A stretch of DNA of 64,000 nt. Origin: Pollenia angustigena (Eukaryota > Arthropoda > Insecta > Diptera > Polleniidae). Shown in pieces: positions 9,190 through 61,035 of this stretch (positions are counted from its first letter, which is position 1; the number at the start of each line of letters is the position of its first letter). Below the pieces are notes generated by a model that ran no database searches, was not told where the DNA came from, and worked only from the letters and a program-made list of their open reading frames with translations. Both the position numbers and the translations under genes were made by a program. The stretch lies in contig OV884059.1 in assembly GCA_930367215.1 (NCBI GenBank), positions 53,352,957 through 53,416,956 on the forward strand, written 5' to 3'.

Positions 9190-12100
9190 TGGCGTTTTAT
9201 CGCTAAATTATATAAAATTTCAATAATTTCTTTTCAAAAAGGGTGGTTTTTAGCGATTTATAACTAAATATAATTTCTATTTAAAATATTGAGCTATTTT
9301 TTATTGCGTTTCTGTTATATTATTTCAATCATTTTTTCAAAAAGGGTGGTATTTATTGGTTTATAACAAAATATACTTTCTATTTAAAATATTGAGCTAT
9401 TTTTTATTGTGTTTGTTTTACCATATTTCAATAATTTCTTTTCAAAAAGGGCGATTTTAGGGATTTATGACTAAATATACTTTCTATTTAAAATATTGAG
9501 CTATTTTATATAGTGTTTGTGTTATAATATTTCAATTATTTCTTTTCAAAAAGGGCGGTTTTTATTGGTTTATAACTAAATATACTTTCTATTTAAAATT
9601 TTGAGCTATTTTTTATTGTGTTTCATTAATAATAATTCAATAATTTTATTTCAAAAAGGGTGCTTTTTAGCGATTTATGACTAAAAATACTTTCTATTTA
9701 AAATATTGAGCTATTTTTTTTTGTGTTTGTTTTACCATATTTCAATAATTTCTTTTCAAAAAGGGCGATTTTAGGGATTTATGTCTAAATATACTTTCTA
9801 TTTAAAATATTGTGCTATTTTATATTGTGTTTGTGTTATAATATTTCAATAATTTATTTTTAAAAAGGTCGATTTTAGCAATTTATGTCTAAATATACTT
9901 TCCATTTAAAATTTTGAGCTATTTTTTATTGTTTCATTAATAATAATTCAATAATTTCTTTTCAAATAGGGTGGTTTTTAGCGATTTATGACTAAATATA
10001 CTTTCTATTTAAAATATTGTGCTATTTTATATTGTGTTTGTGTTATAATATTTCAATAATTTCTTTTTAAAAAGGTCGATTTTAGCGATTTATGTCTAAA
10101 TATACTTTCCATTTAAAATTTTGAGCTATTTTTTATTGTGTTTCATTAATAATTATTCAATAATTTCTTTTCAAATAGGGTGGTTTTTAGCGATTTATGA
10201 CTAAATATACTTTCTATTTAAAATATTGTGCTATTTTATATTGTGTTTGTGTTATAATATTTCAATAATTTCTTTTTAAAAAGGTCGATTTTAGCGATTT
10301 ATGTCTAAATATACTTTCCATTTAAAATTTTGAGCTATTTTTTATTGTGTTTCATTAATAATAATTCAATAATTTCTTTTCAAAAAGGGTGGTTTTTAGC
10401 GATTTATGACTAAATATACTTTCTATTTAAAATATTGTGCTATTTTATATTGTGTTTGTGTTATAATATTTCAATAATTTCTTTTTAAAAAGGTCGATTT
10501 TAGCGATTTATGTCTAAATATACTTTCCATTTAAAATTTTGAGCTATTTTTTATTGTGTTTCATTAATAATAATTCAATAATTTCTTTTCAAATAGGGTG
10601 GTTTTTAGCGATTTATGACTAAATATACTTTCTATTTAAAATATTGTGCCATTTTATATTGTGTTATAATATTTCAATAATTTCTTTCTAAAAAGAGCGA
10701 TTTTAGCGATTTATGTCTAAATATACATTCCATTTAAAATTTTGAGCTATTTTTTATTGTGTTTCATTAATATTAATTCAATAATTTATTTTCAAAAAGG
10801 GTGGTTTTTAGCGATTTATGACTAAACATACTTTCTATTTAAAATATTGTGCTATTTTATATTGTGTTTGTGTTATAATATTTCAATAATTTCTTTTTAA
10901 AAAGGTCGATTTTAGCGATTTATGTCTAAATATACTTTCCATTTAAAATTTTGAGCTATTTTTTATTGTGTTTCATTAATAATAATTCAATAATTTATTT
11001 TCAAAAAGGGTGGTTTTTAGCGATTTATGACTAAATATACTTTCTATTTAAAATATTGTGCTATTTTATATTGTGTTTGTGTTATAATATATCAATAATT
11101 ACTTTTTAAAAAGGGCGATTTTAGCGATTTATGTCTAAATATACTTTCTATTTAAAATATTGTGCCATTTTATAATGTGTTATAATGTTTCAATAATTTC
11201 TTTCTAAAAAGAGCGATTTTAGCGATTTATGTCTAAATATACTTTCCATTTAAAATTTTGAGCTATTTTTTATTGTGTTTCATTAATAATATTTCAATAA
11301 TTACTTTTTAAAAAGGGCGATTTTAGCGATTTATGTCTAAATATACTTTCTATTTAAAATATTGTGCCATTTTATATTGTGTTATAATATTTCAATAATT
11401 TCTTTCTAAAAAGAGCGATTTTAGCGATTTATGTCTAAATATACATTCCATTTAAAATTTTGACCTATTTTTTATTGTGTTTCATTAATAATAATTCAAT
11501 AATTTATTTTCAAAAAGGGTGGTTTTTAGCGATTTATGACTAAATATACTTTCTATTTAAAATATTGTGCTATTTTATATTGTGTTTGTGTTATAATATA
11601 TCAATAATTACTTTTTAAAAATGGCGATTTTAGCGATTTATGTCTAAATATACTTTCTATTTAAAATATTGTGCCATTTTATATTGTGTTATAATATTTC
11701 AATAATTTCTTTTTAAAAAGGTCGATTTTAGCGATTTATGTCTAAATATACTTTTCATTTAAAATTTTGAGCTATTTTTTATTGTGTTTCATTAATAATA
11801 ATTCAATAATTTATTTTCAAAAAGGGTGGTTTTTAGCGATTTATGACTAAATATACTTTCTATTTAAAATATTGTGCTATTTTATATTGTGTTTGTGTTA
11901 TAATATATCAATAATTACTTTTTAAAAATGGCGATTTTAGCGATTTATGTCTAAATATACTTTCTATTTAAAATATTGTGCCATTTTATATTGTGTTATA
12001 ATATTTCAATAATTTCTTTTTAAAAAGGTCGATTTTAGCGATTTATGTCTAAATATACTTTCCATTTAAAATTTTGAGCTATTTTTTATTGTGTTTCATT

Positions 12101-13425
12101 AATAATAATTCAATAATTTATTTTCAAAAAGGGTGGTTTTTAGCGATTTATGACTAAATATTCTTTCTATTTAAAATATTGTGCCATTTTATATTGTGTT
12201 ATAATATTTCAATAATTTCTTTCTAAAAAGAGCGATTTTATCGATTTATGTCTAAATATACATTCCATTTAAAATTTTGACCTATTTTTTATTGTGTTTC
12301 ATTAATAATAATTCAATAATTTATTTTCAAAAAGGGTGGTTTTTAGCGATTTATGACTAAATATACTTTCTATTTAAAATATTGTGCTATTTTATATTGT
12401 GTTTGTGTTATAATATATCAATAATTACTTTTTAAAAATGGCGATTTTAGCGATTTATGTCTAAATATACTTTCTATTTAAAATATTGTGCCATTTTATA
12501 ATGTGTTATAATATTTCAATAATTTCTTTTTAAAAAGGTCGATTTTAGCGATTTATGTCTAAATATACTTTCCATTTAAAATTTTGAGCTATTTTTTATT
12601 GTGTTTCATTAATAATAATTCAATAATTTATTTTCAAAAAGGGTGGTTTTTAGCGATTTATGACTAAATATACTTTCTATTTAAAATATTGTGCTATTTT
12701 ATATTGTGTTTGTGTTATAATATTTCAATAATTTCTTTTTAAAAAGGTCGATTTTGGCGATTTATGTCTAAATATACTTTCCATTTAAAATTTTGAGCTA
12801 TTTTTTATTGTGTTTCATTAATAATAATTCAATAATTTCTTTTCAAAAAGGGTGGTTTTTAGCGATTTATGACTAAATATACTTTCTATTTAAAATATTG
12901 TGCTATTTTATATTGTGTTTGTGTTATAATATTTCAATAATTTCTTTTTAAAAAGGTCGATTTTAGCGATTTATGTCTAAATATACTTTCCATTTAAAAT
13001 TTTGAGCTATTTTTTATTGTGTTTCATTAATAATAATTCAATAATTTCTTTTCAAAAAGGGTGGTTTTTAACGATTTATGACTAAATATACTTTATATTT
13101 AAAATATTGTGCTATTTTATATTGTGTTTGTGTTATAATATTTCAATAATTTCTTTTTAAAAAGAGCGATTTTAGCGATTTATGTCTAAATATACTTTCC
13201 ATTTAAAAATTTTGAGCTATTTTTTATTGTGTTTGTTTTATAATATTTCAATAATTTCTTTTTAAAAAGCGTGATCTTTAGCGATTTATGTCCTAATATA
13301 CTTTCTATTTAAAATATTGAGCTATTTTATATTGTGTATAACAAAAATTTTGTGTTTGTGTTATAATATTTCAATTATTTCTTTTCAAAAAGGTTGGTTT
13401 TAATTGGTTTATAACTAAATATAAA
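9190..13425 (+). repeat. Foldback left tandem array, 209-bp dimer
   Basis: About 40 monomers of 104-105 bp. Two variants alternate: one with AAGGGTGGTTTTTAGCGA and TATGACTAAATATAC, the other with AAGGTCGATTTTAGCGA and TATGTCTAAATATAC. The word TCAAATAGGG or TCAAAAAGGG recurs at exactly 209-bp steps (9963, 10172, 10381, 10590). Some stretches use a third, shorter variant lacking the GTGTTTGTG block. Confidence 0.9.
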
Positions 13426-15885
13426 ATAGCTCAATATTTTAAATAATAGTTAAATTTAGTTATCAATCGCTGAAAACCACCCTTTTTGAAATGAAATAAT
13501 TGAAATATTATAAAGCAAACAAGCAAAAATAGCTAAATTTTTTTAACAATAGGTAAATTTAGCTATAAATCGCTGAAAACCACCCTTTTTGAAATAAAAT
13601 TATTGAAATATTTAAAACCAAACAAGTAAAAATAGCTAAAATTTTTTAATAATAGGTAAATTTAGCTATAAATCGCTGAAAACCACCCTCTTTGAAATAA
13701 AATTATTGAAATATTATAAAACAAACAAGCAAAAATAGCTACATTTTTTTAATAATAGGTAAATTTAGCTAAAAATCGCTGAAAAACACCACCCTTTTTG
13801 AAATAAAATTATTAAAATATTATAAAGCAAACAAGCAAAAAAAGCTAAAATTTTTTAACAATAGGTAAATTTAGCTATAAATCGCTGAAAACCACCCTTT
13901 TTGAAATAAAATTATTGAAATATTATAAAACAAACAAGCAAAAATGGCTACATTTTTTTAATAATAGGTAAATTTAGCTAAAAATCGCTGAAAAACAACC
14001 ACCCTTTTTGAAATAAAAATATTGAAATATTATAAAACAAATAAGCTAAAATAGCTAAATTTTTTAAATAATAGTTAAATTTGGCTATAAATCGCTGAAA
14101 ACCACCCTTTTTGAAATAAAATTATTGAAATATTATAAAACAAACAAGCAAACATAGCTACATTTTTTAATTATAGGTAAATTTAGCTAAAAATCGCTGA
14201 AAAACACCACCCTTTTTGAAATAAAATTATTAAAATATTATAAAGCAAACAAGCAAAAATAGCTAAATTTTTTTAACAATAGGTAAATTTAGCTATAAAT
14301 CGCTGAAAACCACCCTTTTTGAAATAAAATTATTGAAATATTATAAAACAAACAAGCAAAAATGGCTACATTTTTTTAATAATAGGTAAATTTAGCTAAA
14401 AATCGCTGAAAAACAACCACCCTTTTTGAAATAAAAATATTGAAATATTATAAAACAAATAAGCTAAAATAGCTAAATTTTTTAAATAATAGTTAAATTT
14501 GGCTATAAATCGCTGAAAACCACCCTTTTTGAAATAAAATTATTGAAATATTATAAAACAAACAAGCAAACATAGCTACATTTTTTAATTATAGGTAAAT
14601 TTAGCTAAAAATCGCTGAAAAACACCACCCTTTTTGAAATAAAATTATTAAAATATTATAAAGCAAACAAGCAAAAATAGCTAAATTTTTTTAACAATAG
14701 GTAAATTTAGCTATAAATCGCTGAAAACCACCCTTTTTGAAATAAAATTAATGAAATATTATAAAACAAACAAGCAAAAATGGCTACATTTTTTTAATAA
14801 TAGGTAAATTTAGCTAAAAATCGCTGAAAAACACCACCCTTTTTGAAATAAAATTATTAAAATATTATAAAGCAAACAAGCAAAAATAGCTAAATTTTTT
14901 TAACAATAGGTAAATTTAGCTATAAATCGCTGAAAACCACCCTTTTTGAAATGAAATATTATAAAACAAACAAGTAAAGATAGCTAAATTTTTTTAATAA
15001 TAGGTAAATTGAGCTATAAATCGCTGAAAACCACCCTTTTTGAAATAAAATTATTGAAATATTATAAAACAAACAAGTAAAAATAGCTAAATTTTTTTAA
15101 TAATAGGTAAATTGAGCTATAAATCGCTGAAAACCACCCTTTTTGAAATAAAATTATTGAAATATTAAAAACCAAACAAGTAAAAATAGCTAAATTTTTT
15201 TAAAAATAGGTAAATTTGGCTATAAATCGCTGAAAGCCACCCTTTTTGAAATAAAATTATTGAAATATTATAAAACAAACAAGCAAAAATAGCTACATTT
15301 TTTAAATAATTGGTAAATTTAGCTATAAATCGTTAAAAACCACCCTTTTTGAAATAAAAATATTGAAATATTATAAAACAAACAAGCAAAAATAGCTAAA
15401 TTTTTAAAATAATTGGTAAATTTAGCTATAAATCGCTGAAAACCACCCTTTTTGAAATAAAAATATTGAAATATTATAAAACAAATAAGCTAAAATAGCT
15501 AAATTTTTTAAATAATAGGTAAATTTAGCTATAAATCTTTAAAAACCACCCTTTTTGAAATAAAATTATTGGAATATTATAAAACAAACAAGCAAAAATA
15601 GCTAAATTTTTTTAAATAATAGGTAAATTTAGCCATGAATAGCTGAAAACCAACCTTTTTGAAATAAAATTATTGGAATATTATAAAACAAACAAGCAAA
15701 AATAGCTAAATTTTTTAAATAAAAGTTAAATTTAGCTATAAATCTCTAAAAACCACCCTTTTTGAAATAAAATTATTGAAATATTATAAAACAAAGACAA
15801 TTAAAATAGCAAAATTTTTTAAATAATAAGTTAATTAAGCTATAAATTGCTAAAAACCATATTTTTTAAATAAAATTATTTATTC
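13426..15885 (-). repeat. Foldback right tandem array, inverted, 419-bp higher-order repeat
   Basis: About 24 monomers of 103-105 bp with the core ATCGCTGAAAACCACCC followed by TTTTTGAAATAAAATTATTG. Read in reverse they match the left array. A four-monomer variant block (AACACCACCC plus AAAGCAAAC) recurs at 13785, 14204 and 14623, a step of 419 bp. This half was homogenised separately from the left half, which uses a two-monomer unit. Confidence 0.85.
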
Positions 15886-17020
15886 CAGTAAAATTTTATT
15901 AAAAATCGCTGGATTTGACGAGAAAATAGCTAAATTAGCAGCAGTGTAGAAAGAACACACAGAGTTGCATATTACCAGCGTTACCATTTGTCATGTTATT
16001 TTTTTTATAAGTATTTTTAGACGTAAAAAATGTTTAAAATTTTTATATAGATTTTCATATATAATAATAAACTAAAATTTGCAGTATATTAGATGAAAGG
16101 ATGCAATCTTAGATAGTATCTGTCCTTTATTACTGTTAAGTTGTTTAATTTTGTTTACTCCATATATACTTCATACCTTAAAGATCCCAATTACTTATAT
16201 TCTTTTAGGTGCTAAAGTATCTAAAGATGATGAAATCGATTTTAGAGTTAACTCGTCAAAGTCTTATGTTGAATTATGTAATGTTCTGTTCAAATGTTCG
16301 ATTTTGATAACGCCCTTATGAAACACGTTATAGTTTTACTTTTAACTACTTTAAGCACTTTTTATTCAATAATAAATTTTGGTTCTAACAATTTTTTTAT
16401 TATATTTTATATAATATACCCTTCACCTCGAAAACCAATTAGAAACTTTGTTTTCTTGTCTTCGCCATAATCTTAGCTATAAACTAGGAGAAGGAAAGCT
16501 TTAAAAAAAATGGCCATGAAAAACTGTAGTTAGTGCATTAAAATTGCTAAAATATAAAATTTTTATAAATATTTCACAATTTTTGGTCAATTGTCCAAAT
16601 ATTTAAGGATATCGACTTCAAACTCTTTCTCGTGTGGAATTTCTCGAAGCACTTATCGCAACCAACGAAACCCTTTTGCGTTTTGCTAGTTTTTGCGTTT
16701 TTTTTCTCATGTCAAAATCTCGGCTAGAAATTATTTTTGCTACAATTGTAGCCTACAGAATATAAGGAGAAAAAAGTAGAACAAAATAATCCGAAAAATT
16801 GCATCTAATGCCTCAAAAATGCTAAAATGTAGAAAAATTTTAATTTATATATTTTTTTGCACCATTTTTGGCCTGTAGCTGCCACACGGTAATCTTCAGA
16901 AAAAATAGTCTCTAATGCATAATTCCTCATATATCATTCCTAGAAAATGCATTTTGTCACAGTTTTCAGTTGTATTTTTTATCGGAAATTCGTGAAATTT
17001 ATGAAAAACATATGTTGCAA
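15886..17020. repeat. Foldback right arm (outer, mostly unique)
   Basis: Reverse complement of 8054-9189, with the same internal duplication of a ~270-bp block: compare 16460-16700 with 16730-16960, both with a CCATAATCTTAG/CTACAATTGTAG word, then AAGGAGAA, then GCTAAAAT. It ends at a GTTGCAAAC word and runs straight into a tetranucleotide array. Confidence 0.75.
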
Positions 17021-18328
17021 ACAAACAAATAAGCAAATAAACAAATAAGCAAATAAACAAATCAACAAATAAGCAAATAAACAAAAAAACAAACAAGCAA
17101 ATAAACAAACTAACAAAAAAACAAATAAACAGATAAATAACTAAGCAAATAAACAAATAAACAAATAAGCAAATTAACAAATTAACAAATTAACAAATCA
17201 ACAAATAAACCAATTAACAAATACACGAACAAACGAATAAACAAATTAAAAAATAAGCAAATAAACAAATTAACAATTTAAAAAATTAACAAATAAACAA
17301 AAAAGCAAATTAACAAATAAACGAACAAACGAATAAACAAATTAACAAACAAGCAAATTAACAAATTAACAAATAAACGAACAAACAAATTAACAAATAA
17401 AAAAATAAACAAATAAGCAAATTAACAAATTACTTAATAAACAAATACCCAAATAAACATATTAACAAATTTAAAAATAAACAAATTAACAAATAAACAA
17501 ATTAACAAATAAACAAATACCCAAATAAACAAATTAACAAATACACAAATAAACAAATACCCAAATAAACAAATTAACAAATAAACCAATAAACAAAAAA
17601 ACATATAAACAAACAAATAAACAAATTAACAAATAAACAAATTAACCAATTAACATATAAACGAACAAACTAATAAACAAATTAATAAATAAACAAATTA
17701 ACCAATTAACAAATAAACGAACAAATGAATAAACGAATAAACAAATTAACAAATAAACAAATAAGCAAATTAACAAATAAACAAATAAACGAATAAACAA
17801 ATTTAAAAATAAACAAATAAACAAATTTACAAATAAACAAATTAACACACAAACAAACTAACAAATAAACAAAAAAGCAAATAAAAAAAATAACAAATTA
17901 ACAAATTAACAAATAAACAAATTAACAAATAAAAAAATAACAAATTAACAAATTAACAAATTACTAAATAAACAAATAAACATATAAACAAATACCCAAA
18001 TAAACAAATTAACAAATAAACAAATTAACAAACAAACAAATTAAAAAATAAACAAATACCCAAATAAAGAAATTAACAAATAAACAAACAAACAAATAAA
18101 CAAATTAACAAATAAACAAATACCCAAATAAAGAAATTAACAAATAAACAAACAAACAAATTAACAAATAAACAAAAAAACAAATAAACAAATTAACAAA
18201 TTAACAAATAAACAAATTAACAAATTAACAAATAAACCAATAAACAAATAGGCAAAAAAACAAATAAATAAACAAATCAACAAATAAACAAAAAAAACCA
18301 ATAAAGAAATTAACAAAAAAACAAAAAT
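17021..18328. repeat. (AAAC/AAAT/TAAC)n array of about 1.3 kb
   Basis: Near-continuous four-base words AAAC, AAAT, TAAC and AAGC, with a recurring longer variant containing ACCCAAATAAACAAA. The long Leu/Ile/Phe/Cys-rich open frames on the minus strand arise from this repeat and are not genes. Confidence 0.95.
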
Positions 18329-50765: not shown

Positions 50766-50860
50766 AAAAAGAGAGTTTTCTTCTTACTATTTACTATGAG
50801 TATTTATTAATTTTACGTATGAGCTCTTTACAAGTTTAATGGTTTAAAATGATAAGTTTT

Positions 50861-51402
50861 TCAGTACTTAATAGTTTGTATTTGTAAGTTTCCCATGTGG
50901 AATGCTTCCGTAATAATAAGAACTAGTAAATTAAGCATCTCCATCCTGCGTTTATAACATACGTCATTCTCCTCAAACCAAAAAGAATAAATTGAATTTT
51001 TTGTACAACTCACGCATTGCTCAACAATAAATTTTTTTATGCCTTTCATTTCTTTATTTTGTAAAAATATTTTTTCAAAGACCTTTATGTATATGTATGT
51101 ATTTTACAAACTTCAAAAAATAAGTCAGAGGGGGCACACAAACCTCCAAAGTCGGATTCTTTTGATAATTTTTTGCATGAATAAACTTTTCTGAAGGATA
51201 TGACAAAATTTGCGCTGGTTTTATTATATCCATACGACATTTAACGCATGATATTCGTTCTGCTAAGTAACCAACAAAATATCGACTCGATGTTAATTCT
51301 ATTGGCCCATTGTTGGATGTAAAAGAATCAGCATCTTCATTAAAATATTCTTCATTTTCATTGTATATACATATCTGCGATTTCGATTTCAGGGGTGTGA
51401 GT
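50861..51402 (-). pseudogene. P-type transposase relic, minus-strand copy
   Basis: On the minus strand this reads ELTSSRYFVGYLAERISCVK, then CRMDIIKPAQILSYPSEK, a stop, and after a frameshift KVFEKIFLQNKEMKGIKKF and VEQCVSCTKNSIYSFWF. It is parallel to the plus-strand copy at 51424-52356, so the two form an inverted pair with a junction near 51403-51423. The CxxC and YxxGYxxxR blocks fit the C-terminal part of P/THAP9-like transposases. Confidence 0.6.
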
Positions 51403-51423
51403 ACTCTCTGATGTACTGCAGTA

Positions 51424-52356
51424 CTTTGAGTATCTTCTAAAAAAACTCGATAGCTACTTTGACTGTTTTAATAGTAAAAATTCCAATGATCCCAACCTGC
51501 TGAAGCGTGGGTTAAGGCTTACTAATAACACTTGGGAAGTACTGCAAGAGCTAGTTTCGTACATACGGCAAGTTGAATATTTCGGTAACAAAATATTCTG
51601 CATCAGTGGACTAATCGAAACCACCAGTGGTATATTATCGTTAACCGAGGAAATGTTACAAGAAAATTCTAATTTACTTACCATTTTAACCAGCCGTTTT
51701 AACCAAGACCCATTAGAAAACGTATTTTCATATGTACGCGCCAAAGGTGGCCATTGCAAAAACCCTTCTGTTCACGAATTCAACATCGCAATGGCCAACT
51801 TTTATCTTAAAAAAAAAAAACATTTTAGAAGTTGATGAAGGTGTATCACCTAATAATCCAACCCCCTTGATAAAAATCGCAGATATATACCAGGAAGCAT
51901 ATTTTGATGAAAGTGCCGACAGCTTTAACTCTGTAAATTTGTCAACAGAACTTACTTCTAGTCGATATTTCATTGGCTACATAGCGCAACGAGTATCCTG
52001 CACTAAATGCCGAATGGATATGATTAAACCATCTCAAATTTTAACATACCCATCAGAAATGTATATCCATACGAAAAACTATGAAAATTAATCTGATTTT
52101 GGAAGTTTATGTTCACCCTCTGATTTGTTTATGCAAAATTAACATAAAAGTGTTCGAAAATTTATTTTTAAAGAACAGAGCAATGAAACACAAAAAAAAA
52201 GTTATTATGGAGCAGTGCGTAGAATGTACTAATAATACCATTTATTCGTTTTGGTTAGACGAGAAAAATGATTGTTACAACCATAGATTGGAATTTTTAA
52301 ATTTGCTTATACTGGTATTACTAAGAAAGCATTCCTCTTGGGAGACATATACATAA
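51424..52356 (+). pseudogene. P-type transposase relic, plus-strand copy
   Basis: Reads LLKRGLRLTNNTWEVLQEL, LTSRFNQDPLENVFSYVRAK and GGHCKNPSVHEFNIAMANFY, then a frameshift in an A-run near 51820. It continues LTSSRYFIGYIAQRVSCTKC and PSQILTYPSEMYIHTKNYEN, a stop at 52089-52091, and after another shift MEQCVECTNNTIYSFWL. The NQDPLEN(V/F)F and GG-xxx-NP blocks are hallmarks of P-element-type transposase C-termini. The N-terminal THAP DNA-binding domain and most of the catalytic core are absent. It may relate to the P-like elements just downstream, but no TIR links them. Confidence 0.65.
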
Positions 52357-52652
52357 ATACAAAACTTCGAATGCTGAAAAAGCTAAAATTTTAAAACATT
52401 AATAGGTATGTACTTGTCGTATTACTCGTCATTATAATCCTATCGTTAATAATTTTGTAGATCTAATTATGCTTTTGCTGATCCGTGTACGAGGCTATGT
52501 CATCAATATAATTATTTGTCTGAATTTGTTGATTATTATTTAAGTTGTTTAAGTTGCTGTAAAATATAACACTTTTTACATAAATAAATAAAAATAAAAG
52601 TATAATATGCGAACAATTTTAATAATATGGCTTTGATTTTATTGGATTTCAT
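52357..52652. other. AT-rich noncoding DNA
   Basis: Nothing recognised. Confidence 0.5.
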
Positions 52653-53396: not shown

Positions 53397-53541
53397 CTTG
53401 TGAGCAAAATGTATTAATAAAGTGGCCTCACTACTACAACAATCCAACAAAAGAAAAAACAACAGGCATTTTGTTGCTAGAATTGTGACGACAAATGTCA
53501 AAATAAGCAAATTCGCCTTTATTTGAGTGTAAACAAAAAGC

Positions 53542-55560
53542 CATGATGGAATAAGGAGGTGGGCTCACTAGCCCAGCTGGTCACAGTGTTTTTTGCCGCA
53601 GTGTGACGGTTTATGTCAATTTTTTGTTTATTTACATTAATTTTCGCCGTATAGCTAAGAAAAATGTCATTTAATTGTTTGAAGTTTTTTTTATGAATTT
53701 TACTTTTGACAGTTACTTTTTTATTATTTTAAAATGGTTGTGGTTTATATTTAAAAAAATGTAACAAAATTTGTATTGAATCGAAAATGGAATCAATTCC
53801 GTGTTTGGTTATGTTTAAAATCTGGTTCTAATTTGAAAATTAAAATACAATTCGATCAGAATAATAAATGCGGAATCAAATTCATTCCGAAGGAAGTGTA
53901 TAACAGATTTAAGAGGGTCCTTTCGTATCTCATTTAGAAATAAAATCTGCTCAATTTTGTATTTACAAGTTTTCAATTACAAACTCGTATACTTTCGTAC
54001 AAATAGTATTTTTTAATAAAATCTATATTTCCAATTTACTTTCATTTTCAAAAAATATAAGAACATGAACAAATGTGATGAAAAAAACTTTAATCCCTTC
54101 CAAATTACCCAAAGAAATATGTAACTATATCAGAGATCCTGTACTGTACAAACAGCTAGATCGGAAGATAGTAAAAATACCCAAAACAAAATGCGAAAAC
54201 TGAGAAATTTGTAAATTTTATTTTTAATTTCCAGTTATGCTTCAAATATTAAATAGAACATGATGGTTATCAAGAAAAATTTGAAGATAACAATCATAAA
54301 TTATGTCTCTTATACAAAGAAGTTTTTTTCAATAAAATATACAAAAATGAATTAAATATGAAAAAGCTGATCCAAGTTGAGCTCATAAGCCGAGTACATA
54401 CATATTTGTTTTCTAACAAATAATTTGCGATTGACGTCCTGGAATTTAACCTCCAAAAGCTTTTTTTTTTCTTCTAAATACTCGAATATTCCCTTCAAAG
54501 CTTTCAACTGTTGTTTTCTTTTTTTCCGTAGTACCTATGACATTGGGTTCAGTGGCACTTTCAAAATTAAATATGTCTCTTAACAACAGTTGGCAAGTTT
54601 GTAAATTTCTAAAAATGGGTCACTTAACTGCATGTAGCAGTTGGCATCAGTGTTAATTACCAAAAATGGGTAAGAAGTTCTTTAGAAATCCAAGTCTATA
54701 TCCAATATATAATTGTAAGCATCCCGAGCTGCTAAGAGTTCTTTAGGATTAGGGGGTTTCTCCGAGTCGGTATTTACAACTTGTAGCTCCAAATTTTTGG
54801 CCTACTTTTGTAATTTGACAATAACCTTCTGATATGAAAAAGTCCAAACAACAGTCTACACTTATTTTATCTTCTTTGTGGGCAACTTTAAAATTATACT
54901 TGCCAAAAGGCATTTGATTTCACCAAGAATTTTTTTCCCACACCACACGATTAAAATTCTTAGCATAATAGGCCGGTATAGTCCAATTCTCAAAACTTAA
55001 CTCGGCTATTTCTTGTGATATTACCATATCTGGATGAAAGTTTTACTTTCTAAAGGCAAATGTCTGCTAGCCAAACAACGATAAATAAATTCCAACACAT
55101 CATCGTGATAGTCTACAATTAATATTGGTATGCGTTTGAAACGTCTTAGACCTACACTGGAGGTTACCAGGTCATCTTGTTGTGACTGATCCGCAGTTGA
55201 GGCTGTTATCGTTATTTCACCCTTTTTGCTACATCAGTCAGTTTTGATCGTTTGTTGGCAGGCTCCTTAATTTCTTCGGAACTTCTTGGCTTATTAAAAC
55301 TTTCACTTTTCATGTTAATAAGCCATATTGAATTTTATGTAATTTTTTTTAAGAAAATTGCCAGTTTTGACAGAAAAAACATAGGCAAATTTCGGTGCTT
55401 TGACATCAAAACTAGGCGAATTGGCTTTTTGTTTACACTCAAATAAAGGCGAATTTGCTTATTTTGACATTTGTCGTCACAATTCTAGCAACAAAATGCC
55501 TGTTGTTTTTTCTTTTGTTGGATTGTTGTAGTAGTGAGGCCACTTTATTAATACATTTTG
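53542..55560 (-). mobile_element. Inner inverted copy of the 2019-bp P-like transposon
   Basis: Begins CATGATGG and ends CATTTTG, with CAAAAAGC as its perfect 8-bp target duplication (53534-53541 and 55561-55568). Its 1890-bp body (53542-55431) is the mirror image of 55561-57450. The only difference I noticed is T at 54977 against G at 56015, which are mirror positions. The inner 129 bp (55432-55560) is the reverse of 53405-53533. Confidence 0.88.
54350..55316 (-). pseudogene. UPF0489 (C5orf22-like) gene fragment in the inner transposon copy
   Basis: Mirror image of 55679-56640 and described there. It carries the same frameshifts and the same deletion, for instance at 55241-55215 and near 55019, so the gene was already broken in the transposon before the self-insertion. 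Confidence 0.7.
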
Positions 55561-55678
55561 CAAAAAGCCAATTCGCCTAGTTTTGATGTCAAAGCACCGA
55601 AATTTGCCTATGTTTTTTCTGTCAAAACTGGCAATTTTCTTAAAAAAAATTACATAAAATTCAATATGGCTTATTAAC

Positions 55679-56640
55679 ATGAAAAGTGAAAGTTTTAATA
55701 AGCCAAGAAGTTCCGAAGAAATTAAGGAGCCTGCCAACAAACGATCAAAACTGACTGATGTAGCAAAAAGGGTGAAATAACGATAACAGCCTCAACTGCG
55801 GATCAGTCACAACAAGATGACCTGGTAACCTCCAGTGTAGGTCTAAGACGTTTCAAACGCATACCAATATTAATTGTAGACTATCACGATGATGTGTTGG
55901 AATTTATTTATCGTTGTTTGGCTAGCAGACATTTGCCTTTAGAAAGTAAAACTTTCATCCAGATATGGTAATATCACAAGAAATAGCCGAGTTAAGTTTT
56001 GAGAATTGGACTATGCCGGCCTATTATGCTAAGAATTTTAATCGTGTGGTGTGGGAAAAAAATTCTTGGTGAAATCAAATGCCTTTTGGCAAGTATAATT
56101 TTAAAGTTGCCCACAAAGAAGATAAAATAAGTGTAGACTGTTGTTTGGACTTTTTCATATCAGAAGGTTATTGTCAAATTACAAAAGTAGGCCAAAAATT
56201 TGGAGCTACAAGTTGTAAATACCGACTCGGAGAAACCCCCTAATCCTAAAGAACTCTTAGCAGCTCGGGATGCTTACAATTATATATTGGATATAGACTT
56301 GGATTTCTAAAGAACTTCTTACCCATTTTTGGTAATTAACACTGATGCCAACTGCTACATGCAGTTAAGTGACCCATTTTTAGAAATTTACAAACTTGCC
56401 AACTGTTGTTAAGAGACATATTTAATTTTGAAAGTGCCACTGAACCCAATGTCATAGGTACTACGGAAAAAAAGAAAACAACAGTTGAAAGCTTTGAAGG
56501 GAATATTCGAGTATTTAGAAGAAAAAAAAAAGCTTTTGGAGGTTAAATTCCAGGACGTCAATCGCAAATTATTTGTTAGAAAACAAATATGTATGTACTC
56601 GGCTTATGAGCTCAACTTGGATCAGCTTTTTCATATTTAA
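55679..56640 (+). pseudogene. Captured cellular gene fragment, UPF0489 (C5orf22-like) family
   Basis: The reading from ATG 55679 shifts near 55772 and continues LRRFKRIPILIVDYHDDVLE, FIYRCLASRHLPLESKTFI, a small deletion that removes the expected HFDSH-type motif but leaves PDMVISQEIAEL, then ENWTMPAYYAKNFNRVVW, a stop after EKNSW, VDCCLDFFISEGYCQ and AARDAYNYILDIDLDF. The order (IYR-xxx-S-KHLP-like, PDM, ENW-MP-Y, LDIDLDF) matches the conserved UPF0489 family, whose DSHPD and DIDLDF motifs resemble arginase-fold metal sites. The family's biochemical function is not established to my knowledge. No introns are visible. This is host-type sequence inside a transposon. Confidence 0.7.
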
Positions 56641-57458
56641 TTCATTTTTGTATATTTTATTGAAAAAAACTTCTTTGTATAAGAGACATAATTTATGATT
56701 GTTATCTTCAAATTTTTCTTGATAACCATCATGTTCTATTTAATATTTGAAGCATAACTGGAAATTAAAAATAAAATTTACAAATTTCTCAGTTTTCGCA
56801 TTTTGTTTTGGGTATTTTTACTATCTTCCGATCTAGCTGTTTGTACAGTACAGGATCTCTGATATAGTTACATATTTCTTTGGGTAATTTGGAAGGGATT
56901 AAAGTTTTTTTCATCACATTTGTTCATGTTCTTATATTTTTTGAAAATGAAAGTAAATTGGAAATATAGATTTTATTAAAAAATACTATTTGTACGAAAG
57001 TATACGAGTTTGTAATTGAAAACTTGTAAATACAAAATTGAGCAGATTTTATTTCTAAATGAGATACGAAAGGACCCTCTTAAATCTGTTATACACTTCC
57101 TTCGGAATGAATTTGATTCCGCATTTATTATTCTGATCGAATTGTATTTTAATTTTCAAATTAGAACCAGATTTTAAACATAACCAAACACGGAATTGAT
57201 TCCATTTTCGATTCAATACAAATTTTGTTACATTTTTTTAAATATAAACCACAACCATTTTAAAATAATAAAAAAGTAACTGTCAAAAGTAAAATTCATA
57301 AAAAAAACTTCAAACAATTAAATGACATTTTTCTTAGCTATACGGCGAAAATTAATGTAAATAAACAAAAAATTGACATAAACCGTCACACTGCGGCAAA
57401 AAACACTGTGACCAGCTGGGCTAGTGAGCCCACCTCCTTATTCCATCATGCTTGTGAG

Positions 57459-57954
57459 TTTTTTATTACTAACACAATTACAAAATTGTGAGTTTGATGA
57501 GGCATGTTAATGTGTGACCATGTCGCTTTAGAAAATATAAAATATCTTTTATGAACAAAGCAGTTTATTCTTTCAGAAAAATTATTTTTTATATGCCTAC
57601 AATTGTTTAAATTTAGACAATAACAGCATTTGAACTTCGGTGCGAATCGATATAATTTCATCTGTACAACAATAAAACACATATTATTGCCCTACAATTA
57701 AAATCTGTTACATTTGGTTAAACGTTGGTTATTTGCACAGAAATGGAATGCAAACAAAACATCTTTTATTATTTAAATGTGTTTTCAACGAGAAAACCAG
57801 ACTTTTTATGCAGCAGCAGCACAAGAAAAAATAAAATTTAATTTGTCAAAATCAGCTGATTTGTTCGAACGCAGCTTGTGACGCTTACAAAAGTAGAAAG
57901 TAAACCTACTTTTCGCCTCAAGGCATCTACGCTTTTGTGGATGTAACTTACTAC
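57459..57954. other. Noncoding DNA between two P-like elements
   Basis: No gene recognised. The 78-codon minus-strand frame at 57446-57682 lacks known motifs and overlaps a target duplication, so it is unlikely to be coding. Confidence 0.5.
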
Positions 57955-60817: not shown

Positions 60818-61035
60818 TACGTGTATATTTTTATTTACTTTTTTGGTTTTTTGCCACACATACATGCACACAAAACACATTTTTCCTTTCACACAAAACA
60901 CATTTTTCCTTTTGTTTTGCCTATGTAGTAGTAAGATTTTGACAACGGCGAGGAATTTTACACAAACAAAATGCCTGTTGTTTTTTGTATTGTTGTAGAA
61001 GTAAGCAGACCTATTGGATAGGCCTTGGTATAACT

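Follow-up and report, generated by a model that had tools for sequence, protein, structure and literature searches.

Probable inverted self-insertion of a P-superfamily transposon carrying captured host-gene DNA in the fly Pollenia angustigena

A double Ds of maize is an element inserted in inverted orientation into an identical copy of itself. Ds makes 8-bp duplications (PMC3260210); this paper names double Ds and, together with PMC9910405, provides the background on breakage of the double-Ds type. P and P-like elements have 8-bp duplications and terminal inverted repeats (TIRs) (PMC7776569), and self-insertions of TIR elements are among the events mapped with a tool that was tested on hobo and P (PMC9604107). 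A survey of gene-carrying TIR transposons (Pack-TIRs) counted 370 of them in 55 of 100 species, with four multicopy, and refers to capture by P elements that had been activated artificially; no Pack-TIRs were found in bird and insect reference genomes (PMC8277862). Mu killer of maize is an inverted duplication inside a transposon for which a long hairpin RNA was proposed, and the same paper reports short antisense transcripts, not the long hairpin, with silencing (PMC3440606). In Drosophila, the hairpin RNA (hpRNA) loci hp-ODox1, hp-ODox2, hp58, hp88, and others produce Dcr-2-dependent small interfering RNAs (siRNAs); validated fly hpRNA loci often lie distant from their targets, and locus mobilisation or retrogene insertion was suggested, after which promoter gain may be a problem (PMC10317233). 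Here we describe a locus of the fly Pollenia angustigena in which a 2,019-bp P-type transposon, carrying a piece of a host gene of the UPF0489 (C5orf22) family, is interrupted by an inverted, near-identical copy of itself. The locus lies in a 64-kb window, the whole stretch that was analyzed (contig C4, OV884059.1, 53,352,957-53,416,956), of a 1.37-Gb genome assembly with 31 contigs. Capture of host DNA by a P family, its spread, and then inverted self-insertion very probably account for the origin and structure of this locus.

The outer element spans 53405-57450 of the window and is 2,019 bp long when the insert and one duplication are left out (53405-53541 plus 55569-57450). The inner element (53542-55560), also of 2,019 bp, is inverted and sits after outer-element position 137. 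This structure had been claimed in an initial annotation of the locus, and it was verified base by base: both 8-bp duplications are exact, both copies have the length given, and the outermost mirror positions of the arms add up to the constant reported there (53542+57450 = 110992). The inverted repeat had been called near-perfect, and when the outer copy was aligned with the reverse complement of the inner copy, a single base in 2,019 differed, at element position 584 (window 54977 T and 56015 G, which would pair as U-G in plus-strand RNA). An inverted-repeat search returned one repeat of 1,901 nt (53531-55431 and 55561-57461) and one of 140 nt (53404-53543 and 55422-55561), and together these give the nested geometry, with a hairpin stem of 1,890 bp and a loop of 129 nt. 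Folding of the 601 nt around the loop gave -431.8 kcal/mol, versus a mean of -125.2 in 20 shuffles, and the inverted-repeat structure is far above chance. The initial annotation had also taken the duplications to date both copies; they do demonstrate two insertions, but duplications alone give no date.

Assemblies are known to fail at long inverted repeats, and the palindrome could in principle be a fold-back chimera of the reads or the assembly. A fold-back, however, would mirror about one point and extend into the flanks. The 300-bp flanks, compared left versus right, shared only short matches (20 bp at most, best E 0.008), so the palindrome does not continue into them. On one side, 137 bp of the outer copy project beyond the mirror; exact 8-bp duplications, different for the two copies, flank each of them, and one base is private to the inner copy. 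We consider an artefact very improbable.

Relatives of the element were sought with its left 304 bp as query, which gave 44 matches; 40 of 1,333 candidates were scored, so the counts are lower bounds. Twenty stretches around matches were examined, with ten more that included the host-gene locus and longer stretches of places already examined. Both ends were found in 15 copies, 14 in the 20 stretches plus L056 among the further ten, and the other six of the 20 had no second end within the examined stretch. As these 15 come from the best-scoring places, shares among them are not genome-wide estimates. Their direct repeats were exact over 8 bp in 10 copies, exact over 9 bp in 3, and of 8 bp with one mismatch in 2. 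Solo copies elsewhere in the genome, whose absence the initial annotation had named as a refutation, do exist near full length (L009, 2,016 bp, and L010, 2,018 bp), each with 3 substitutions relative to the outer copy. At no more than two mismatches, the genome held 77 ends of the CATGATG type and 42 of the CAAAATG type, with 0 for reversed control patterns, and a facing pair of CATGATG-type ends within 10 kb occurred only in the window.

The designation of the element as P-like was borne out by two larger elements with the same ends, L016 (6,104 bp, duplication GTCTATAA) and L019 (5,044 bp, duplication ATTGAAAG). Both have element positions 1-197 (96-97%) and 1794-2019 (87-88%) in common with the 2,019-bp element, and blastn found no match to it between positions 197 and 1794. 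The minus strand of L016 encodes, in pieces, THAP, TNP-like RNase H N and C, and Tnp_P_element_C domains above the cut-off and a helix-turn-helix (HTH) domain below it; P-transposase domains are encoded in both the 5.0- and the 6.1-kb relatives, THAP in the longer one. Neither THAP nor P-transposase domains were found in the frames of the 2,019-bp element. Since larger relatives with the same ends encode these domains, the 2,019-bp element is, on this evidence, a non-autonomous derivative of a P-superfamily transposon. L017 (1,434 bp) is an internal deletion of the L016/L019 type. The family resembles Drosophila P and zebrafish P-like elements in its 8-bp duplications, its terminal inverted repeats and, in the longer relative, its THAP and P-transposase domains. 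It differs from Drosophila P, whose terminal repeats are perfect over 31 bp (PMC7776569), in that its terminal repeats are imperfect (21 of 29 positions match) and its cargo is a host gene piece.

That cargo, missed in the initial annotation, is the more interesting part, as it changes what the hairpin could do. Four consecutive frame pieces match PF12640 (UPF0489) at profile positions 1-29, 56-84, 86-122, and 129-166, each with E < 2e-4, and the other three of the seven pieces tested had no UPF0489 match. Each of the four matches scored individually just under the Pfam cut-off, which speaks against the assignment. A protein search with the frame pieces joined by X returned nine proteins (best E 4.1e-58), 8 of them with PF12640; the named relative among them is a protein from the fly Teleopsis dalmanni. 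A broken transposase as cargo was rejected (4 of 7 frame pieces match UPF0489, 0 of 7 P transposase). In a structure search, no solved structure matched UPF0489. The intact host gene was found on contig C3 (L029), with 457 codons open from stop to stop, PF12640 at 2.7e-63, and 71% identity to the Teleopsis protein over residues 39-423. Element positions 251-1113 are 79.6% identical in nucleotides to the host coding sequence, and positions 1095-1353, 1356-1514, and 1519-1718 correspond to three separate stretches of the flank downstream of the host gene (73-89%); the captured frame is broken in the element. Intron loss as a sign of capture from messenger RNA (mRNA) was dropped, given that the host open frame has no intron and the downstream flank was captured too. 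Within the captured part, a 34-bp sequence is repeated at 51-bp spacing with 79% identity (element 890-974, window 56321-56405), and the order of the blocks that match the host gene exactly is disturbed in this stretch, so a small duplication arose during or after capture.

Captured DNA was present in 12 of the 15 both-ended copies, judged by element coordinates (L009-L015, L018, L022, L025, L028, and L056). These lie on all five large contigs and have their own direct repeats of 8 or 9 bp, two of them with one mismatch. If the gene sequence belonged to the insertion site rather than to the transposon, it should not lie inside both copies of the composite and in copies at different places; nothing was found in favor of such an origin, which these cargo-bearing copies refute and which we regard as next to impossible. 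The joint between host positions 2260 and 3085 recurs in more divergent copies, as 2260/3085 in L031 and 2258/3094 in L026, and the joint 3390/3524 recurs in L026 and as 3376/3524 in L031. Together with the tree described below, the recurring joints point to one capture event, subject to the midpoint rooting of that tree and its weak placing of L050 and L051. By its ends, cargo, and dispersal, the element is a multicopy P-type Pack-TIR, with host DNA between both P ends, a known parent locus, and spread by transposition. Metazoan Pack-TIRs, including Ssk-FB4 of D. melanogaster (PMC8277862), are alike in being TIR transposons with duplicated host gene DNA, multicopy and with distinct duplications, whereas the element here is of P type, in a fly, and has cargo in 12 of the 15 both-ended copies.

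The source of the inner copy was assessed from its substitutions. In aligned rows, which include some overlapping loci of one place and from which position 1091 (a run of A) was excluded, 603A was seen in 2 of 40 rows and 964C in 2 of 44, in each case the inner and outer copies, and 584A in 1 of 41, the inner copy. In a midpoint-rooted tree of 19 rows (16 chosen loci, the inner copy, the outer copy, and the host gene), inner and outer copies were paired with support of 95/90 and the outer branch had zero length; L050 and L051 were weakly placed beside the host gene (80/0). Owing to the two substitutions private to both copies and to this pairing, direct descent of the inner from the outer copy is the simplest reading. 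Palindrome arms undergo gene conversion, and the inner copy might instead have come from a sibling elsewhere and been matched to the outer copy later. Conversion could explain the common 603A and 964C, which counts against direct descent, and the closest siblings, L009 and L010, are so near to the outer copy that little conversion would be needed; direct descent accounts most simply for the private bases and the pairing, and we judge a sibling source unlikely. The self-insertion named in the initial annotation is supported by the two distinct 8-bp duplications, the substitutions exclusive to the pair, and the sister pairing in the tree. In related copies, the inner target site was uninterrupted in 24 blast rows (19 distinct places), reading CAAAAAGC in 10 rows and CAAATAGC in 14.

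With one difference in 2,019 positions, the inner insertion is, by this measure, recent. The fly mutation rate is about 3e-9 per site and generation, which would give a rough age in the region of 1e5 generations. Of the two junctions of the composite, the left one was searched for in the genome and, at no more than three mismatches, occurred once; by this search, nothing indicates that the composite has multiplied. Galileo and Foldback-like elements are alike in joining the P superfamily with long inverted repeats, but Galileo has 7-bp duplications and moves with the long repeats as its ends, whereas the left-junction search gave no second copy, and no sign of movement as a unit, for the composite here. 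The initial annotation's view of the locus as a snapshot of how FB-like elements can arise is therefore conjecture, as is its double-stranded RNA. Elsewhere, L052 (4485-4524 and 4519-6448; C5:26354495 and C5:26368170) holds two near-identical copies in which a reversed CAAAATG end abuts element position ~117-123, with the junction geometry of the right half of the composite in the window. It may record an earlier, separate case of a P end landing at this subterminal position.

On this evidence, a P-superfamily family took up host DNA between its own ends, of which ~1.5 kb is left today, and the gene-carrying family spread by transposition as a non-autonomous Pack-TIR. Into one copy on contig C4, at element position 130, a second one was later inserted in inverted orientation, which generated the 1,890-bp inverted repeat. 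The inserted copy most likely came from the outer element by a local move, for instance between sister chromatids during repair of the gap left at the donor site.

The end of a P element carries a promoter. About 225 terminal bases of the P end that precedes the THAP frame (first ATG at ~393) are retained in the element, and a P promoter is likely in the end at positions 1794-2019; both of the putative-promoter ends point into the palindrome. A transcript starting at either P end would traverse the loop and both arms and form a long hairpin. Dicing of this RNA would yield products matching the Pack family as well as, in 13 exact blocks, the mRNA transcribed from the intact host gene. Of the 1,870 21-mers in the stem, 1,795 occur in L010, 889 in L054 (a repeat unit described below), and 137 exactly in the host coding sequence. 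The 13 exact blocks of at least 19 nt between stem and host coding sequence total 395 nt, the longest being 49 nt; as controls, 0 21-mers matched the host coding sequence in 200 base shuffles and 0 of 59,968 in the rest of the window.

Several observations argue against effective silencing. Only 22 of the 1,870 stem 21-mers match each of the two transposase-coding elements tested, so the hairpin would be an inefficient silencer of transposase mRNA. At the 79.6% identity between the captured coding part and the host gene, most siRNAs would not match the latter. On the putative-promoter strand, AATAAA signals lie 322, 398, and 474 nt in from the element end and could terminate transcripts ahead of the loop. 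That the locus truly makes siRNA is doubtful in our estimation, and still somewhat less likely is that a new RNA-interference gene was born in two steps and now represses its own Pack family and the intact UPF0489 gene in trans. The composite resembles Mu killer as an inverted duplication inside a transposon with a proposed long hairpin; Mu killer targets the transposase gene, whereas the stem here shares few 21-mers with transposase-coding elements and more with the host gene. It resembles the Drosophila hpRNA loci as an inverted repeat homologous to another gene or transposon, and the long inverted repeat with exact stretches to a distant target gene that marks such loci is present here. Unlike in those loci, its origin by transposon self-insertion is visible, and its siRNAs are putative.

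The composite can also be compared with the maize double Ds, with which it has in common an element inverted inside a near-identical copy and 8-bp duplications; the superfamily and kingdom are different, and breakage is a prediction for the composite. The end pairs 53405/53542 (137 bp apart) and 55560/57450 are in direct orientation, and such neighboring ends would, if P transposase acts like Ac in this respect, offer transposase wrong partners and expose the locus to breakage of the double-Ds kind, close termini being linked to breakage in PMC9910405. Chromosome breakage or rearrangement, rather than RNA silencing, could therefore be the main effect of the locus; no rearranged derivative was seen, with the left junction, the one searched for, found once, and we hold this to be possible, if short of an even prospect. 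The double element could also be an inert relic without transcription or effect: the captured frame is broken and retrotransposon and P relics lie in the neighborhood, but the composite is young, and for us the matter is evenly balanced. Transcription, small RNAs, silencing, and breakage at the composite are effects that we infer from its structure. The positions of its parts are given in Table 1.

Table 1. Parts of the nested element and its hairpin, in window positions
Feature	Positions	Strand	Evidence
Outer-insertion target site duplication, 8 bp, CTTGTGAG, left copy	53397-53404	.	
Outer-insertion target site duplication, 8 bp, CTTGTGAG, right copy	57451-57458	.	
Outer copy, left piece, element 1-137, CAAAATG end	53405-53541	+	
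Inner-insertion target site CAAAAAGC, element 130-137, left copy	53534-53541	.	
Inner-insertion target site duplication CAAAAAGC, right copy	55561-55568	.	
Inner copy, 2,019 bp, inverted, one private substitution at 54977	53542-55560	-	
Outer copy, right piece, element 138-2019, CATGATG end	55569-57450	+	
Left arm of 1,890-bp stem, element 2019 to 130	53542-55431	-	
Hairpin loop, 129 nt, inner-copy element 129 to 1	55432-55560	-	
Right arm of 1,890-bp stem, element 130 to 2019	55561-57450	+	
Captured host DNA, outer copy, element 251-1718: partial UPF0489 coding sequence, then downstream-flank pieces, frames broken	55682-57149	+	PF12640 frame pieces, protein search, nucleotide match to L029
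Captured host DNA, inner copy	53843-55310	-	
P-derived end, outer copy, element 1794-2019, 87-88% to L016/L019; putative P promoter facing palindrome	57225-57450	+	
P-derived end, inner copy, element 2019 to 1794; putative P promoter facing palindrome	53542-53767	-	
P-derived other end, inner copy, element 197 to 1, 96-97% to L016/L019	55364-55560	-	

Other repeats were found in the window and among the relatives. A relic of a different P-type transposase lies at 51401-52091 (+), with PF21789 and a match to PDB 6p5a at 2.5e-06, and beside it a stretch is repeated in inverted orientation (51894-52402 versus 50836-51353, 71%). The transposase relic was rejected as the family parent, since its identity to the family's RNase H piece is 34% (70 residues) and none of four further transposase pieces tried had a match in the window. 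A 31-bp match of 93.5% to element 41-71 at 60965-60995 (-) is perhaps a relic of a related P end. Long tandem arrays (9211-15880 and 17018-18325), with units of 105/209 bp and 103 bp and an 8-bp CAAATAAA array, lie where the window is richest in AT. A repeat unit several kb long (L054:1-9001, L033-L048, L055, and L057, contigs C1-C5) includes a frame of 245 amino acids with PF05971 RNA methyltransferase at 7.8e-49, which we take to be METTL16-like, and a gene-carrying P copy that lacks the first 122 bases. L054 and L057 are 99.6% identical over 5,967 bp, and 33 near-identical rows were found on all five large contigs. Dozens of independent insertions were rejected as an explanation of these rows, the compared members having long flanks in common; as these members lie in a longer repeat, the 33 rows were excluded from the count of cargo-bearing copies.

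TIR self-nesting, silencing by inverted transposon duplications, and gene-carrying TIR transposons in animals were each known already. Among the literature matches listed, none described a host gene carried by a natural P element or a hairpin arising from P self-insertion. What is new is that capture, self-insertion, and a hairpin with many exact host-gene stretches are joined in one natural locus, and a single genome contains the parent gene, the gene-carrying element as a solo copy, and the double element. The locus adds a P-type multicopy gene-carrying transposon in a fly, and the composite is a natural counterpart of the maize double Ds. If the proposed RNA-interference gene were real, it would be a hairpin with transposon promoters at both ends, far from its target, that arose after capture and self-insertion. 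Capture followed by self-insertion would then supply the distance, the inverted repeat, and the promoter by ordinary steps of transposition.

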